64,000 nucleotides of DNA, taken from NCBI RefSeq assembly GCF_016495405.1, contig NZ_CP044522.1:248001-312000 (forward strand). The letters run 5' to 3'. Every line of letters starts with the position of its first letter. The first letter of the stretch is position 1. The position numbers and the translations under genes were made by a program. This DNA comes from Cobetia sp. cqz5-12 (GTDB taxonomy: Bacteria > Pseudomonadota > Gammaproteobacteria > Pseudomonadales > Halomonadaceae). A model generated the notes under the pieces. That model was not told the origin of the DNA, ran no database searches, and worked only from the letters and a program-made list of their open reading frames with translations. This document shows positions 14,488 to 20,597 of the stretch, piece by piece.

Positions 14488-16317
14488 ATGCCGCTGCTTT
14501 CTGAATCTTCCGCCGTGATGTGGTTGCTGGTCGGCGTGCTGTTGATGCTGTCGTTGATCCTGGGGCTGGGCTGGCGGCGAGCCCGCGAGCAGTTTCACGC
14601 TCTCGAAGAGAGCAGTGACGAAACTCGGCAGACGTTGCAGCAGATGCTTGAAGAGGCGCGGGATCTACAGCAACAGGCCGAGCAGCGGACGGCCTTGATC
14701 GAACAACGTGGCGCACTGGATGGGCAGCAGGCGGAGCAGCAGCAACGCTATCTGAGCCAGTCGCTGGAGGAGGCGCGCCAGGCGCGCGATGCGCTGACGG
14801 AGCAGCTCGCCACGCTGCGCGAATCGCTGCAGGGGCGCCTGGATGAACAGTCACGCGCCCTGAGTGAGCAGCAGACGCTGGCGCGCAGCCTGACCCGCCA
14901 GCAGGAAGTGCTGGAGGCGCAGCTGCTGGAGCGCGAGGAGCGTCTCGAGACACTGAGCGAGCGCTACGCCGAGCTGCGCGAGACACATGCCTCGCTGGTG
15001 ACGCGCCAGCGTCAGGAGGCCAGCCATCACGAGCAGCAGCTGGCATTGCTCAACGAGTCGCGCGAGCGCCTGAGTCAGGAATTCGAGCAGCTGGCGGGCA
15101 AGGTGTTCGAGGAGCGCCAGCAGCGCTTCACCGCCGCCAGTGGCGCCCAGCTCGAGCAGTTGCTCAAGCCGTTTCGTGAGCAGGTCGGCGACTTCCGTCA
15201 GCGCCTCGAGCAGCTGCATGGCGAGGAGGTGCGTGAGCGCACCAGCCTCAAGAGTCAGCTCGACCAGCTGGCGGGCCTCAACCGCCAGATCACCGAGGAG
15301 GCGGCCAATCTGTCGCGGGCGCTCAAGGGCGACAGCAAGATGCAGGGCAACTGGGGCGAGATGATTCTGGAGACCGTGCTGGAGCGCTCCGGTCTGCGTG
15401 ATGGCATCGAGTTCAAGCGCGAGGTGTCGTTCACCGGCGAGGGCGGACGCCAGCGTCCGGATGCCATCGTCTACCTGCCCGACAACAAGCATCTGATCAT
15501 CGATGCCAAGGTTTCACTGACCGCCTACACCGAGTACGTCAACGCCGAGGATGACGTGACGCGAGCCCGCGCGCTGCGTGCGCATCTGACCTCGGTGCGT
15601 GGCCATGTCACCGGGCTTGCGCGGCGCAACTATCCCGCCATCGAGGGGCTGGGCTCGCCGGATTTCGTGTTCCTTTTCCTGCCGATGGAGCCGGCCTTCG
15701 CGCTGGCTTTCGAACACGATGACAGCCTGTTCCAGGACGCCTTCACCCAGGGCGTGGTGATGGTGACGCCGACCACCTTGCTGGCCAGTCTGCGCACCGT
15801 GGCGAGTCTGTGGAGTCTGGAACGCCAGAACGACAATGCGCGCGTGATCGGGGAGCGCGCCGGGGCGCTGCTCGACAAGTTCCGCGGCCTCGCCGAATCC
15901 CTCGAGGAGCTGGGTACTCAGCTGGGGCGCACGCGCGAGGCGCATGATACCGCCATGAAGCGGCTGGCCAGCGGGCGCGGCAACCTGATCAGCCGTGCCG
16001 AGGAGCTGCTGGAACTCGGCGCGCGCATGAAGAAGCCATTGCCGGAATCACTGGTGCGCCAGTCGCGCGACACCCTGCATCAGCCCGAGCAGGCGCTGGA
16101 TCAGCCGCCGACATCCGCGCCGTCGGTGCTTGATCGCCAGGCCACATCCGAGCGGCCTGCCGGTGAAGAAGCGGCGGCCAGTGAAGGCCAGGATGGCATC
16201 GGAGCGCCGGACGCCGAGACGCCGGACGCCGAGGCGCTGGATACCGAGGCAGGGCAGGCGCCTGCGTCGCTCTCGCGCTGGGAGCTCATGGAGCGCAAGT
16301 GGCAGGGCGATAGCTGA
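14488..16317 (+). CDS. rmuC: DNA recombination protein RmuC
   Basis: A 609-residue protein: an N-terminal membrane anchor (about residues 11-27), a long Gln/Glu/Arg-rich coiled coil (about 30-235) and the RmuC nuclease-like domain (GNWGEMILETVLERSGL near 290; LIIDAKVSLTAY near 340). RmuC limits inversions at short inverted repeats and acts on replication intermediates. The ATG at 14488 is chosen over one 63 bases upstream because a GGAG site is correctly spaced and the anchor is then N-terminal. The C-terminal tail holds a 15-bp in-frame repeat (16204-16248) encoding PDAE-type units. Confidence 0.92.
   Translation: MPLLSESSAVMWLLVGVLLMLSLILGLGWRRAREQFHALEESSDETRQTLQQMLEEARDLQQQAEQRTALIEQRGALDGQQAEQQQRYLSQSLEEARQARDALTEQLATLRESLQGRLDEQSRALSEQQTLARSLTRQQEVLEAQLLEREERLETLSERYAELRETHASLVTRQRQEASHHEQQLALLNESRERLSQEFEQLAGKVFEERQQRFTAASGAQLEQLLKPFREQVGDFRQRLEQLHGEEVRERTSLKSQLDQLAGLNRQITEEAANLSRALKGDSKMQGNWGEMILETVLERSGLRDGIEFKREVSFTGEGGRQRPDAIVYLPDNKHLIIDAKVSLTAYTEYVNAEDDVTRARALRAHLTSVRGHVTGLARRNYPAIEGLGSPDFVFLFLPMEPAFALAFEHDDSLFQDAFTQGVVMVTPTTLLASLRTVASLWSLERQNDNARVIGERAGALLDKFRGLAESLEELGTQLGRTREAHDTAMKRLASGRGNLISRAEELLELGARMKKPLPESLVRQSRDTLHQPEQALDQPPTSAPSVLDRQATSERPAGEEAAASEGQDGIGAPDAETPDAEALDTEAGQAPASLSRWELMERKWQGDS
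16204..16248 (+). repeat. In-frame 15-bp tandem repeat, 3 units, in the rmuC 3' end
   Basis: The units GCGCCGGACGCCGAG, ACGCCGGACGCCGAG and GCGCTGGATACCGAG encode APDAE, TPDAE and ALDTE in the acidic disordered tail, 22 codons before the stop. Confidence 0.8.
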
Positions 16318-16350
16318 TCGCCCTCATCGCCTGCAGCATTGCAGGCAGTC

Positions 16351-16384
16351 GTTGCGTCTGACGTTGCGACAGACGTTCAGACAG
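16351..16384. repeat. 12-bp tandem repeat, about 2.8 units, 3' of rmuC
   Basis: GTTGCGTCTGAC, then GTTGCGACAGAC, then GTTCAGACAG (partial). It begins 33 bases after the rmuC stop. Confidence 0.6.
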
Positions 16385-16396
16385 CAGATGACAGTC

Positions 16397-16433
16397 AACG
16401 CCAGCGGTCCCTGCATGGGGTCGCTGGCGTTTT
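16397..16433 (+). terminator. Rho-independent terminator of rmuC
   Basis: A 10-bp stem (AACGCCAGCG with CGCTGGCGTT) and a 15-base loop, with T residues continuing to 16433. Confidence 0.75.
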
Positions 16434-16658
16434 CATGGCGAGGTCAACGCAAGCGCGGGGTATCGTTCCCACTTCTGGTGAGGGGAATGAGGGTTGCGCG
16501 ATATGGTCGAGATGCCGGTGAGTCAGGATTTTTCGATTTTTTCTGCATCCATCTTTCCAGGCTCCCCGTAAGTTGGATTGAGCCCGCAGCGCAGGGGCGA
16601 AAGTGATAGATAAATAACGTTTGGCTCATTAAAGAGCATTTTCTCAGGAGATATGCCC

Positions 16659-16955
16659 ATGTCTACCAAGACGAACACGTCCGCCAAGACCGCTTTTGCC
16701 CTGGCCTCCGCATTCGGAACCGCTGTCGCTCTGTCTACCGCTGTCGTCTCGCTTCCGGCTCACGCGGCGGGCATGGAAAAGTGTTACGGCGTGTCGCTGG
16801 CCGGTGAGAATGACTGCGCCGCTGGTCCGGGCACTTCGTGTGCCGGAACCTCGACCGTCGATTATCAGGGCAATGCCTGGAAGCTGGTTCCGGAAGGCAC
16901 CTGCACCTCCATCGAGACGCCGAATGGCACCGGCAGCCTGGAAGAGATCAAGTAA
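16659..16955 (+). CDS. bufA1: Bufferin precursor peptide BufA1 (DUF2282)
   Basis: A 98-residue precursor of the DUF2282/BufA1 family. A signal peptide ends at PAHA-AG (about residue 36). The core has four cysteines at 42, 53, 61 and 82 in the family pattern ([24 protein letters not shown]). In characterised bufferins, BufB/BufC convert core Cys residues to 5-thiooxazoles, and the exported peptide chelates copper. The second ATG (16659) is used because AGGAG (16646-16650) is 8 bases away, whereas the first ATG (16653) is too close. It heads the operon bufA1-bufB-bufC-doxX. Confidence 0.93.
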
Positions 16956-17064
16956 GCATCACGTGTCGGGGCTGGCTCGGACTTTCCCGGGCATCCCCCG
17001 AACTTGACGTCCGGTGGCCTGTCGCCACGCCGCCACCGGACGTTCGCCGCCTCGAGAGGTTTTC

Positions 17065-17991
17065 ATGCACCAGCCATCCCCTTCCCCCGGCAGTCCGGAT
17101 TTCGGTACGGCCTATTCCTCGCTCGACGAGATGGCCGTCGGCATCAGTCTCAAGGCGCAGCATGTGCGTGAGCTGATGTCGTCGCGACCGGCGCTGGGGT
17201 TTCTCGAGATTCATGCCGAGAACTACATGGGCGCCGGCGGGGCACCCCATGCTCGGCTTGATGCGCTGCAGGAGTATCCGCTCTCGATTCATGGTGTCGG
17301 CCTGTCGCTGGCATCGGAGCGCCCGCTGGATGCCACGCATCTGGCGCGCCTCAGAACGCTCTGCGAGCGTCACCCGCCCACCAGCGTGTCAGAACATCTG
17401 GCCTGGGCCGGCCATAGCGGCCACTTCTACAACGACCTGCTGCCGGTACCGCTGACGGACGCGATGCTGGCACGGGTCAGCGATAACCTGATGCAGTTGC
17501 AGGACACCCTGGGCCGTCAGGTATTGATCGAGAATCCCGCCCACTATCTGCGTTTCGATGCACGCGAGCTGGGAGCGGAACTGATTCCCGAGACCCATTT
17601 CCTCACTCGCCTGGTCGAGCGTAGTGGCTGTGGGCTGCTGATCGACGTCAACAATGTCTTCGTCTCGGCGCACAACATCGGGATCGATCCCGCGGCCTGG
17701 CTGGAGTCCATTCCGGCTCACGCCGTCGGGGAGGTCCATCTGGCGGGGCATGGTGAGGACACGCGTGAAGGCCTGTTGATCGACAATCATGGTGCGCCGG
17801 TCTGCGATGAGGTCTGGGCACTGTATGCCGACTTCATCAATCGCATCGGGCCGCGCCCGACGCTGATTGAGTGGGATACCCAGGTGCCGGCGCTGGAGGT
17901 ATTGCTGGGACAGACCGCGCGCGCGCAGACCTTGCTGCACAGCACGCGGGCGCAGCAACTGGCACGCTCCGGCGAGGAGGGCGACCGATGA
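17065..17991 (+). CDS. bufB: MNIO family (DUF692) bufferin maturation enzyme BufB
   Basis: A 308-residue multinuclear non-heme iron-dependent oxidative enzyme (formerly DUF692), a TIM barrel. Family metal-site segments are visible in order: FLEIHAENYMG, LSIHGVGLSL, VSEHLAWAG, VLIENPAHYLR, LIDVNNVFVSAHNIG, EVHLAGHGED and LIEWD. It would oxidise Cys residues of BufA1. The ATG at 17065 has a GAGAGG site and a normal family N-terminus. The start codon of bufC overlaps its stop (ATGA), as expected for a stable BufB-BufC pair. Confidence 0.95.
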   Translation: MHQPSPSPGSPDFGTAYSSLDEMAVGISLKAQHVRELMSSRPALGFLEIHAENYMGAGGAPHARLDALQEYPLSIHGVGLSLASERPLDATHLARLRTLCERHPPTSVSEHLAWAGHSGHFYNDLLPVPLTDAMLARVSDNLMQLQDTLGRQVLIENPAHYLRFDARELGAELIPETHFLTRLVERSGCGLLIDVNNVFVSAHNIGIDPAAWLESIPAHAVGEVHLAGHGEDTREGLLIDNHGAPVCDEVWALYADFINRIGPRPTLIEWDTQVPALEVLLGQTARAQTLLHSTRAQQLARSGEEGDR

Positions 17992-18794
17992 GCTCTCTCG
18001 AGCGGCACGCCAGCGCTGGGCACCAGCCCGACTGGCAGGGCGCCTTCATCGAGGCGCTCACCCAGCCCGACGCTGCGCTGCCCGGTATCGAGGCAGGCCA
18101 TCAGCAGCGCCTCGATGTCTATCGCAACAATGTCTGGGCCAGCTTGATCAGTGCGCTGGAAGAGGCCTATCCGGTGACCCGTCAGGTGGTAGGTGAGCGC
18201 TTCTTTGCGGCCCTGGCCCATGATCATTCCCGTCATCATCTGCCGCGATCACCGCTGATGATGGAGTATGGGGCTGGCCTTGCCGAAACCCTGCACGCGA
18301 CCCTGACCACGCTGGTCGAGACGCGTCAGGTGTTGGCTGCTCAGCTACCGTTCTATGCGGTGGACCTGGCACGCTTCGAGGCCGCTCGTCTGGTGGCCTA
18401 TCACGCGGCGGACGCCGAAGCCCTGGTGCCGACCCGGCTGGCGGGTTTGCCGCCCGAGGCGGTGATGGAGCTCAGGTTCTCGGCGCACCCCGCGGCATGC
18501 CTGCTGCACCTGGAGCATGCGGTGCTCGAGATCTGGCAGCGCCATCAGCATGCAGGCGCGACGCTTGAGGGGCTGGATATCGCGCGGCCCCAGCGGGTGT
18601 TGATCACGCGCCCGGCGCTGGATGTGCAGGTCACGGTGCTGTGCGAGGCCGCTGCCTGTCTGCTTGAGCTGCTGCTGGCGGGGCAGACGCTGGCGGACGC
18701 GGCAGCGCGGCTCGCAGACGCACATCCTGAACAGGAGCTGGGGCCGCTGCTGGCCCCCCTGCTGGCAAGTGGTGTCTTTCGCGCGCCGACCTGA
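17988..18794 (+). CDS. bufC: BufC, DUF2063 partner of the MNIO enzyme
   Basis: A 268-residue protein with the N-terminal DUF2063/HvfC-BufC domain (GIEAGHQQRLDVYRNNVWASLISALEEAYPVT at about residues 26-57, quoted in part: RLDVYRNNVWASLISAL). In bufferin systems this protein binds BufB and presents the precursor. Its ATG at 17988 overlaps the bufB stop by four bases, so translation is coupled. The C-terminal half, with a winged-helix-like end (DAAARLADAHPEQELGPLLAPLLASG), agrees with known BufC layouts. No regulator is encoded beside it. Confidence 0.92.
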   Translation: MSSLERHASAGHQPDWQGAFIEALTQPDAALPGIEAGHQQRLDVYRNNVWASLISALEEAYPVTRQVVGERFFAALAHDHSRHHLPRSPLMMEYGAGLAETLHATLTTLVETRQVLAAQLPFYAVDLARFEAARLVAYHAADAEALVPTRLAGLPPEAVMELRFSAHPAACLLHLEHAVLEIWQRHQHAGATLEGLDIARPQRVLITRPALDVQVTVLCEAAACLLELLLAGQTLADAAARLADAHPEQELGPLLAPLLASGVFRAPT

Positions 18795-18887
18795 TCGTGA
18801 TCGATGGTTTCTTGCTCTGCTCTATCCTGCTCGCTTCTTTTCTGCTCGACCCTTCGCGCCCTGGCGCACCCTTGAGGAGGCCTCATC

Positions 18888-19361
18888 ATGAGCCTTGAAT
18901 CATCAACGACGCCTGCGGTTCGCTCCGGTGTGGCGGGGCAGGTCCTGAAAGTGTTCGTCTGGCTGGAAAATCTGCGCATGGATGCGGTGCTGATCCTGAT
19001 GCGCATCGTGATGGGCGCCGTGTTCTTCATGTCGGCGCAGACCAAGGTCGACGGCTTCTCGATCAAGGACAGCACCTTCTTCCTGTTTGAACACGAATAC
19101 GCCTTGCCACTGGTCTCACCGATACTGGCCGCGTGGCTGGCGACCATCGCCGAGCACCTCTTCCCGCTGATGCTGTGGCTGGGGCTGGGGACGCGCTTCG
19201 CGGCGCTGGGGCTGGCCCTCATGACACTGACCATCCAGTTGTTCGTCTATCCCCACGCCTGGGTGACCCACGGCCTGTGGCTGTCCAGCCTGCTGGTGCT
19301 GGTACTGCAAGGCCCGGGGCGTCTGTCGCTTGATCAGCTGATTCGCTCACGCATCGCCTGA
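18888..19361 (+). CDS. DoxX family membrane protein of the bufferin operon
   Basis: A 157-residue, four-helix membrane protein of the DoxX family ([20 protein letters not shown] in helix 1, followed by [19 protein letters not shown]). DoxX genes are common fourth members of bufferin operons. Their role is unclear; redox or transport support at the inner membrane has been proposed. A very good GAGGAGG site precedes the ATG, 93 bases after bufC, with no terminator between. A perfect 42-bp palindrome closes the operon. Confidence 0.9.
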
Positions 19362-19408
19362 AGTCGTCATCTGATGGTGGCGGCCGGTGAGAGAGGTGTG
19401 AGTCGTAC

Positions 19409-19450
19409 ACAACGCAAGACGGAGACCCCGGGGTCTCCGTCTTGCGTTGT
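19409..19450. terminator. Perfect 42-bp palindrome, bidirectional terminator
   Basis: The two 21-base arms (19409-19429 and 19430-19450) are exact complements with no spacer; the centre is CCCCGGGG. It lies between the convergent DoxX and App1-like genes and can fold identically in both transcripts. Confidence 0.85.
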
Positions 19451-19484
19451 AGTGTCGCTATCTATCCGCTGGCTATCGAGGCGC

Positions 19485-20597
19485 TCAGGCCGGCTCGTCG
19501 GCGAGTTGATGCTCGATCTCGGCACGCACCATCTCGACACTGGCGGCATCGATGTAGCCGTTGGCATGCGCGTGGTGCGCCATGTCGAGGCTATCGGTGC
19601 TCAACAGCATCACGCAGCCGAGAGCGGCCAGCTCCTCGCCGAGCCGGTCCAGTTCGGCCTTGCGCGAGTCCGAATCGCCTATCTGGCGAATGTAGATCGC
19701 GCAGATGCGGCCGGGATAGCGGCGTACGACCTCGGCGTAGACTTCCGGGTCATGCTGGCCGCTGTCGCCGATGAGCAGGAACTGCATCTCGTCATACAGG
19801 CCGAGCATCTTCTCGATCAGCGCCTGCTTGTGGTCTTCGGAGCGTCTGGGCAGCGGGCGTTGCAGCGTCAGGCCCCACTCGCGCAGGAACAGGATCGGCC
19901 CGACCGGAATGCGGTTGTGCTGGAAGAAGACCTCCAGCATCTCGTAGATGCTCCATGGGCCACGCGACACATAGAGCAGCGGGCGCTGCTGCTGGCCGTC
20001 ATCTCCCTCATGCAGTGCCTGATAGAGCGCGGCCACGCCGGGAAAGGCGGTGCGGCGCTCGGCGGACTCGATGAACAGGCGATAAAGCATCTTGAGCTTG
20101 TTGGCGACACCGGTGTACATCACGGTGTCGTCGATATCGCTGATCACCCCGAGGCGCGTGCTGATGGGCGGCAGATAGACCTGTGCCTCGCCCTCCACCA
20201 GGGGCTGCTTCGGCGGACACGCGGTGATGCGGGCGGTATGCCACTGGCCCTGATGCTCCAGCGGCTCGACCAACGGCAGATGCACGCTGAAGTAGCCATC
20301 GCGGTCGGTGATGGCGGTGGTGCGATTGTCTCCCAGCGCGACCTCTACCTCGACGCCGCTCTTGCCCCAGCGCAGCATGCGGCGACCGACATCCATCAGG
20401 TCGCGTCCGGCACCGGGAGCCAGCTGGCTACGTGAGCCGGGCTGGCGGAAGATGCGCCCCATCAGAAAGGCTTCGCTGTGCGAGCCATAGCCACGGTAGG
20501 CGTGAATGACGTAGCCATCCTTGCCCTGGGCGTGGCGCATGGGCTTGGCAGCCACATGCAGCAGCTTGCGTAGCAGACGTGTCAGCGGCAGTGACAT
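19485..20597 (-). CDS. App1-like phosphatidate phosphatase domain protein (DUF2183)
   Basis: A 370-residue protein of the App1/DUF2183 group, related to HAD phosphatases. It has GVISDIDDTVMYTGV (DxDxT-type active site), LYVSRGPWSIYEM and FLLIGDSGQHDPEVY, the characteristic motif set. Family members dephosphorylate phosphatidate or related lipids; bacterial substrates are poorly known. The ATG at 20597 has a textbook AGGAGG site, whereas the longer open frame upstream does not. No signal peptide is evident, so it is probably cytoplasmic or membrane-peripheral. It is monocistronic between terminators. Confidence 0.88.
   Translation of the reverse strand: MSLPLTRLLRKLLHVAAKPMRHAQGKDGYVIHAYRGYGSHSEAFLMGRIFRQPGSRSQLAPGAGRDLMDVGRRMLRWGKSGVEVEVALGDNRTTAITDRDGYFSVHLPLVEPLEHQGQWHTARITACPPKQPLVEGEAQVYLPPISTRLGVISDIDDTVMYTGVANKLKMLYRLFIESAERRTAFPGVAALYQALHEGDDGQQQRPLLYVSRGPWSIYEMLEVFFQHNRIPVGPILFLREWGLTLQRPLPRRSEDHKQALIEKMLGLYDEMQFLLIGDSGQHDPEVYAEVVRRYPGRICAIYIRQIGDSDSRKAELDRLGEELAALGCVMLLSTDSLDMAHHAHANGYIDAASVEMVRAEIEHQLADEPA

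Follow-up and report, generated by a model that had tools for sequence, protein, structure and literature searches.

A complete Buf1-type bufferin operon in Cobetia with a conserved ECF-type promoter, probably read in trans by a SigK/RskA-type sigma factor

Bufferin clusters are widespread, and some of them, like that of Cobetia, have no adjoining regulator gene. In the bufferin model as described in PMC12452194, BufB and BufC turn the central cysteines of the precursor into thiooxazoles, the first and last cysteines form a disulphide, and the exported peptide binds copper. Related peptides are reported to lose 4 H for every cysteine modified and to absorb near 305 nm (PMC12538549, PMC13097082). 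The Caulobacter cluster CC3254-CC3257 (Buf1) is described with a four-cysteine DUF2282 precursor and with the same four genes in the same order as the locus analysed here (PMC12452194, PMC3511200). Operons of the same kind, gigPABT of Cupriavidus metallidurans and the GIG operon of Legionella, are described as copper/gold-induced (PMC10304878, PMC5413113). For a cluster that lacks a neighbouring regulator gene, a promoter that can be read from the DNA and assigned to a distantly encoded sigma factor would be a direct handle on when the cluster is used.

The operon of Cobetia sp. cqz5-12 was analysed in a window, by which we mean the whole 64-kb stretch of DNA under study, and comprises the following genes.

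16659..16955, + strand: bufA1, DUF2282 precursor, 98 aa, with cysteines 42, 53, 61 and 82
17065..17991, + strand: bufB, multinuclear non-haem iron enzyme (MNIO), 308 aa; NF050167, PF05114
17988..18794, + strand: bufC, DUF2063 partner protein, 268 aa; PF09836
18888..19361, + strand: doxX, DoxX-family membrane protein, 157 aa; PF07681

An earlier note made from the letters alone had described a complete, coupled bufA1-bufB-bufC-doxX operon, and this is confirmed by the coordinates, by the ATGA overlap of bufB and bufC (17988-17991) and by the Pfam matches of all four products: BufA1 to DUF2282 (PF10048) at 91.4 bits (cut-off 22.4), BufB to MbnB_TglH_ChrH (PF05114) at 317.9 bits (cut-off 25), BufC to DUF2063 (PF09836) at 85.3 bits (cut-off 27.2) and the DoxX protein to DoxX (PF07681) at 56.9 bits (cut-off 23.6). 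BufB also matches the NCBIfam model NF050167 (MNIO_BufB) at 346.7, above the cut-off of 310, and its relatives of known structure, judged by sequence, are 3bww and MbnB. The NCBIfam models HvfC on BufC and HvfX on the doxX product match below cut-off; for the RRE part of BufC the only match is that of NF050145, at 52.7 and thus below its cut-off of 142. The DUF2282, MNIO_BufB, DUF2063 and DoxX assignments, together with the same cluster in relatives, bear out the proposed bufferin identity, of the Buf1 type.

The four-cysteine precursor also holds, as each of Cys 42, 53, 61 and 82 is C in 108/108 aligned BufA1 sequences, the rows having been picked by BLAST similarity to BufA1 of Cobetia sp. 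cqz5-12. What needs amending in the earlier picture is the fate of these residues: all four are conserved, but the published model modifies only the central cysteines and places the outer two in the disulphide (PMC12452194). The N-terminus of BufA1 looks Sec-like by eye, with a hydrophobic stretch ending LPAHA-A. The alternative bufA1 ATG at 16653 reads GTG or GTA in the five other Cobetia (from the alignment); because it is unconserved and too near the ribosome-binding site, 16659 is the better start.

In all six Cobetia genomes (6/6) the operon lies between rmuC and app1-dps with identical gene order. A DUF2282 gene is present in 19/151 sampled genomes of the family, and all four buf genes are found in 19/19 family regions, which come from the 18 other DUF2282-positive genomes. 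Of the 80 top-ranking BufB loci in other genomes, some of them cut by contig ends, 68 have all four genes by tblastn. The operon is thus an ordinary representative of a widespread type; the locus is a regular, complete Buf1 bufferin cluster of known type, and the operon itself is nothing new. What is added here is a promoter that can be tested and a named candidate for the sigma factor that would act on it in trans. Two side observations concern other bufferin-type genes. Genome G078 (L129, L130) carries three DUF2282 genes, two of them in tandem, and the TGCATCC motif discussed below precedes only the first copy of the tandem pair. Just past the window end, at ~315.6-317.9 kb of the contig (G000:C1; L172:2646-4892, strand -), lies a second bufferin-type operon with MNIO and DUF2063 genes and a six-cysteine precursor that looks Buf2-like by eye; no TGCATCC-N16-CGTA was found ahead of this Buf2-type operon.

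The stretches outside the coding sequences contain the promoter and several potential hairpins.

16397..16433, no strand assigned: strong hairpin at the rmuC 3' end, between rmuC and the bufferin operon (folding)
16544..16550, + strand: -35-like element TGCATCC of an ECF-type promoter, exact in 6/6 Cobetia
16567..16572, + strand: -10-like element CGTAAG, 16 bases past the -35 element, exact in 6/6 Cobetia
16578..16629, + strand: conserved leader in which TTGAGCC and GGCTCAT are able to pair (alignment, single-sequence folds)
17006..17043, + strand: intercistronic hairpin between bufA1 and bufB (folding)
19409..19450, no strand assigned: long hairpin at the operon end, between doxX and the convergent APP1-like gene (folding)

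In the upstream alignment, TGCATCC-N16-CGTA (16544-16570) is exact in front of bufA1 in 6/6 Cobetia, and the spacers between the boxes have as few as 7/16 bases alike. The earlier note had left the control of the operon open, which is too strong in view of this conserved ECF-type promoter and of a SigK/RskA-type ECF factor as candidate reader. Its observation that no ECF gene adjoins the operon is correct: no sigma factor gene was found within the 64-kb window, and the nearest Sigma70_r2 match lies ~196 kb past the window end. The genome has eight Sigma70_r2 matches, and the whole-genome search for an ECF sigma/anti-sigma pair, which had been proposed as a check, gave two ECF/RskA_C pairs and no NrsF match.

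The bufA1 promoter pattern recurs elsewhere in the genome. TGCATCC-N16-CGTA has 12 matches, and the pattern read backwards has one. When spacers of 8-26 were allowed, 26 matches were obtained, 12 at spacer 16 and 14 over the 18 other spacers, an excess at spacer 16 with a binomial P of ~2e-9, where the 12 matches include the bufA1 site from which the pattern was drawn. Counts per Cobetia genome range from 8 to 12. With orthology taken from blastp of the first ORF behind each site, and Pfam families scanned on one member each, sites precede a SelR (MsrB-like) gene, a VTT/pyridine-nucleotide-disulphide oxidoreductase fusion gene and an ABC ATPase gene, each in 6/6 Cobetia; at these three the boxes are unchanged and the spacers are as low as 4-7/16 alike. 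Sites before a DUF3047 gene (6/6) and a MoxR gene (5/6) have nearly unchanged spacers and provide weaker support because the spacer is conserved along with the boxes. The site of a glycosyltransferase (GT2) gene is exact in 5/6 Cobetia and has one mismatch in the sixth, and those of a metallo-beta-lactamase-fold protein and of a DUF417 protein occur in 2/6 each, the Pfam scan of the DUF417 ORF in this genome (L237) having started from mid-frame. Among the remaining sites, L235 precedes a gene named LpxC-like by eye, L236 a 141-aa ORF with no Pfam match, and L238 has no called gene within 330 bases. Judged from sequence, this set of sites has the appearance of an ECF regulon, and the presence in it of an MsrB-like enzyme, which has an export-signal-like start, and of a disulphide oxidoreductase would fit a response to envelope oxidation.

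The candidate reader of the promoter is one of the two ECF/RskA_C pairs, encoded on the same contig at the following positions.

G000:C1:3774845-3775399: ECFb, SigK-like sigma factor
G000:C1:3775378-3776088: RskAb, membrane anti-sigma factor (RskA_C), its gene overlapping the ECFb gene

ECFb lies 3.5 Mb from the buf operon along the contig; should the chromosome be circular, the distance is ~0.7 Mb. Behind each of the ECFa and ECFb genes lies an RskA_C gene, and both pairs are present in 6/6 Cobetia; the other ECF genes of the genome are one RpoE-like and one FecI-like, as labelled by eye. In a tree of 92 RskA-linked ECFs from the family, 43 group with ECFb and 49 are others. The exact motif was found at 9/43 loci of the ECFb clade vs 0/49 loci of the other RskA-type ECFs, a comparison among phylogenetically non-independent genomes with a Fisher P of 0.0006, or 0.003 without genus g8, whose two loci were first noticed through the motif. 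The nine positives are 2/2 g8 and 7/7 g10 loci, where the motif lies beside the ECF gene, divergent from it, and precedes a fasciclin-type gene (Pfam on one). The positives are thus confined to two genera, and 34/43 ECFb-clade loci are without the exact motif; tolerating one mismatch gives 12/43 vs 2/49. The mean number of motifs is 4.3 in the 43 ECFb-clade genomes (3.4 without Cobetia) and 0.9 in the 108 others, which include 13 with unclassified RskA (of 82 RskA genomes). Within g10, genomes with an ECFb-clade gene have 1-3 motifs vs 0-2 in those without. In genus g5, bufA1 is preceded by the exact motif in 4/5 genomes and by a form with a single mismatch in the remaining one. The RskA-linked ECFs found there belong to the ECFb clade and have identities of 51-54% with ECFb and 32-38% with ECFa; in one g5 genome with the bufA1 motif (G067), RskA gave no match. 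In Cobetia, the exact motif was not found at the promoter of either ECFb or ECFa, as might mark autoregulation. A looser block, TTGCAYYCC...CGTGA, is conserved ahead of ECFb; since its spacing differs, it was not counted as the motif. Taken together, the bufA1 promoter is probably read by ECFb, a SigK/RskA-type factor encoded in trans.

ECFb has two cysteines, C129 and C179, conserved in 43/43 and 42/43 of the clade and also in 49/49 of the other RskA-type ECFs. They are separated by 50 residues, the same distance as the SigK cysteines at positions 133 and 183 (PMC7509140), and a redox signal for ECFb is plausible because of this spacing. As a separate observation, residue 52 of ECFb (L169:2846-3400) is Cys in 43/43 members of the ECFb clade vs 0/49 other RskA-type ECFs, and it may serve as a further ligand for a metal or in redox chemistry. 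RskA is present in 18/19 bufA1 genomes vs 64/132 others (Fisher P 0.0001, kinship ignored); we give this co-occurrence little weight because kinship is ignored and because the classified RskA-linked ECFs of genera g20 and g11 fall outside the ECFb clade.

These observations suggest an account, which we consider likely as a whole, in which a Buf1 copper-buffering operon is wired in trans into an ECFb envelope-stress regulon. The membrane protein RskAb would hold ECFb until envelope stress releases it, and the freed ECFb would induce bufferin together with the MsrB-like (SelR) protein, the VTT/disulphide oxidoreductase fusion and others, the buf operon being transcribed from the ECF-type promoter at 16544-16572. 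By homology, BufB and BufC would convert Cys53 and Cys61 of BufA1 to thiooxazoles in the cytoplasm, the peptide would be exported by Sec with a Cys42-Cys82 disulphide, and the modified BufA1 would bind excess periplasmic copper, with DoxX as an accessory.

Other accounts of the control have to be set against this one. The reader of the promoter might be the second SigK-like pair, ECFa/RskAa (G000:C1 ~2.863 Mb), which is likewise present in 6/6 Cobetia. ECFa shares 35% identity with ECFb over 170 residues, and it shares the cysteine pair; ECFa-like loci are, however, among the 49 that lack the exact motif, and the g5 factors are nearer to ECFb, so that we regard a role of ECFa here as quite improbable. 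Control by the sigma-F/NrsF system, with sigma and anti-sigma factors encoded away from the operon, has a precedent in Caulobacter, where sigma-F is described as governing DUF2282-DUF692-DUF2063-DoxX operons (PMC3511200), but NrsF gave 0 matches in the genome, with a positive Caulobacter control, and no GTAACC-N16-CGAA was found between rmuC and bufA1 within two mismatches; we rejected this candidate on the missing NrsF match and the missing promoter and hold it to be extremely improbable.

The operon could instead be under a copper sensor, a housekeeping promoter or the leader RNA, with TGCATCC-N16-CGTA as a side matter. The strong conservation of the bufA1 leader, which may fold, would agree with this, as would the Legionella equivalent, for which a response to copper and gold and an influence of RpoS are described (PMC5413113). 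On the other hand, the scan, which covered promoters only, found no sigma-70-like promoter on the + strand at 16300-19500, and the block of ECF type is both conserved and, genome-wide, enriched at exactly one spacer. We consider this explanation unlikely.

In the leader, the TTGAGCC/GGCTCAT fold is predicted in 3/6 of the nearly identical Cobetia leaders and other folds in the rest; a leader hairpin is possible and might be a riboswitch, although the Cobetia folds disagree. Conservation of the leader extends well past the promoter, and the region around the ribosome-binding site may be able to pair in alternative ways. The hairpins at the rmuC end and the doxX end bound the unit, but both are missing from the output of the terminator scan; the one at the rmuC end presumably acts as a terminator. 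A strong intercistronic stem, GACGTCCGGTGG/CCACCGGACGTC or a form close to it, is present in 6/6 Cobetia, one of them with a paired (compensating) change, and hairpins between bufA1 and bufB also occur in the three g20 loci examined, with sequences unlike those of Cobetia and with the segment ends set from BLAST hits. We infer that this hairpin may let the precursor outnumber its enzyme.

The promoter in front of bufA1 differs in related genera. In g20 and g11, TGCATCC-N16-CGTA precedes bufA1 in 0/8 regions, and TGTAAG-N16-CGAC lies upstream in 4/8 (L117, L118, L119, L123), a pattern chosen by eye, its count then being made in the few promoters from which it had been drawn. It occurs in 8/344 loci, all of them bufA1 loci of four genomes, each appearing twice in overlapping loci. 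In three g20 regions, an ECF without detectable similarity to ECFb is encoded downstream of doxX (Pfam on one). Different sigma factors thus seem to read the operon in related genera. A wider reading, which we offer tentatively and hold at slightly less than an even chance, is that bufferin in Cobetia and g5 belongs to a trans-encoded SigK/RskA-type envelope redox regulon with methionine repair and that at 4/8 loci of g20 and g11 the operon is under another promoter class, the bufferin module being a portable effector that changes its ECF master between genera and serves a general periplasmic oxidation response, not copper alone.

The fasciclin-type neighbour gene at the g8 and g10 loci of the ECFb clade is a likeness to the SigK-RskA system of M. 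tuberculosis. MPT70 and MPT83 are fasciclin proteins. The M. tuberculosis system also resembles ECFb in pairing an ECF factor with RskA and in having two cysteines 50 residues apart, and no bufferin operon is named as its target in the sections of PMC7509140 drawn on here. In that system oxidation is described as stabilising SigK-RskA and reduction as freeing SigK (PMC7509140), a redox direction that does not simply fit a methionine-repair regulon. Among the matches listed from the open-access literature, we found no report of bufferin, DUF2282 or DUF692 wired to an RskA-type ECF. The Caulobacter Buf1 operon is described as under ECF sigma control through an N16-spaced promoter, as is proposed here for Cobetia; its promoter, GTAACC-N16-CGAA, is read by sigma-F with a negative regulator, whereas TGCATCC-N16-CGTA in Cobetia, where NrsF was not found, likely belongs to the SigK/RskA type (PMC3511200). 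In Cupriavidus the ECF gene rpoQ adjoins the operon, unlike in Cobetia, where no ECF gene is near (PMC10304878). In Haemophilus influenzae, a single ECF factor, RpoE2, is described as governing msrAB and a DoxX operon with COG3220 and DUF2063 genes, a pairing of methionine repair with an MNIO operon that is the same as in the Cobetia motif set; the H. influenzae factor is linked to ECF group 13 and has an anti-sigma factor of 67 aa, whereas that proposed for Cobetia is a SigK-type ECF with a membrane RskA (PMC7907618). The Cobetia promoter set would tie copper buffering to oxidised-protein repair, two functions known to be paired in Haemophilus, where the ECF factor is unrelated.
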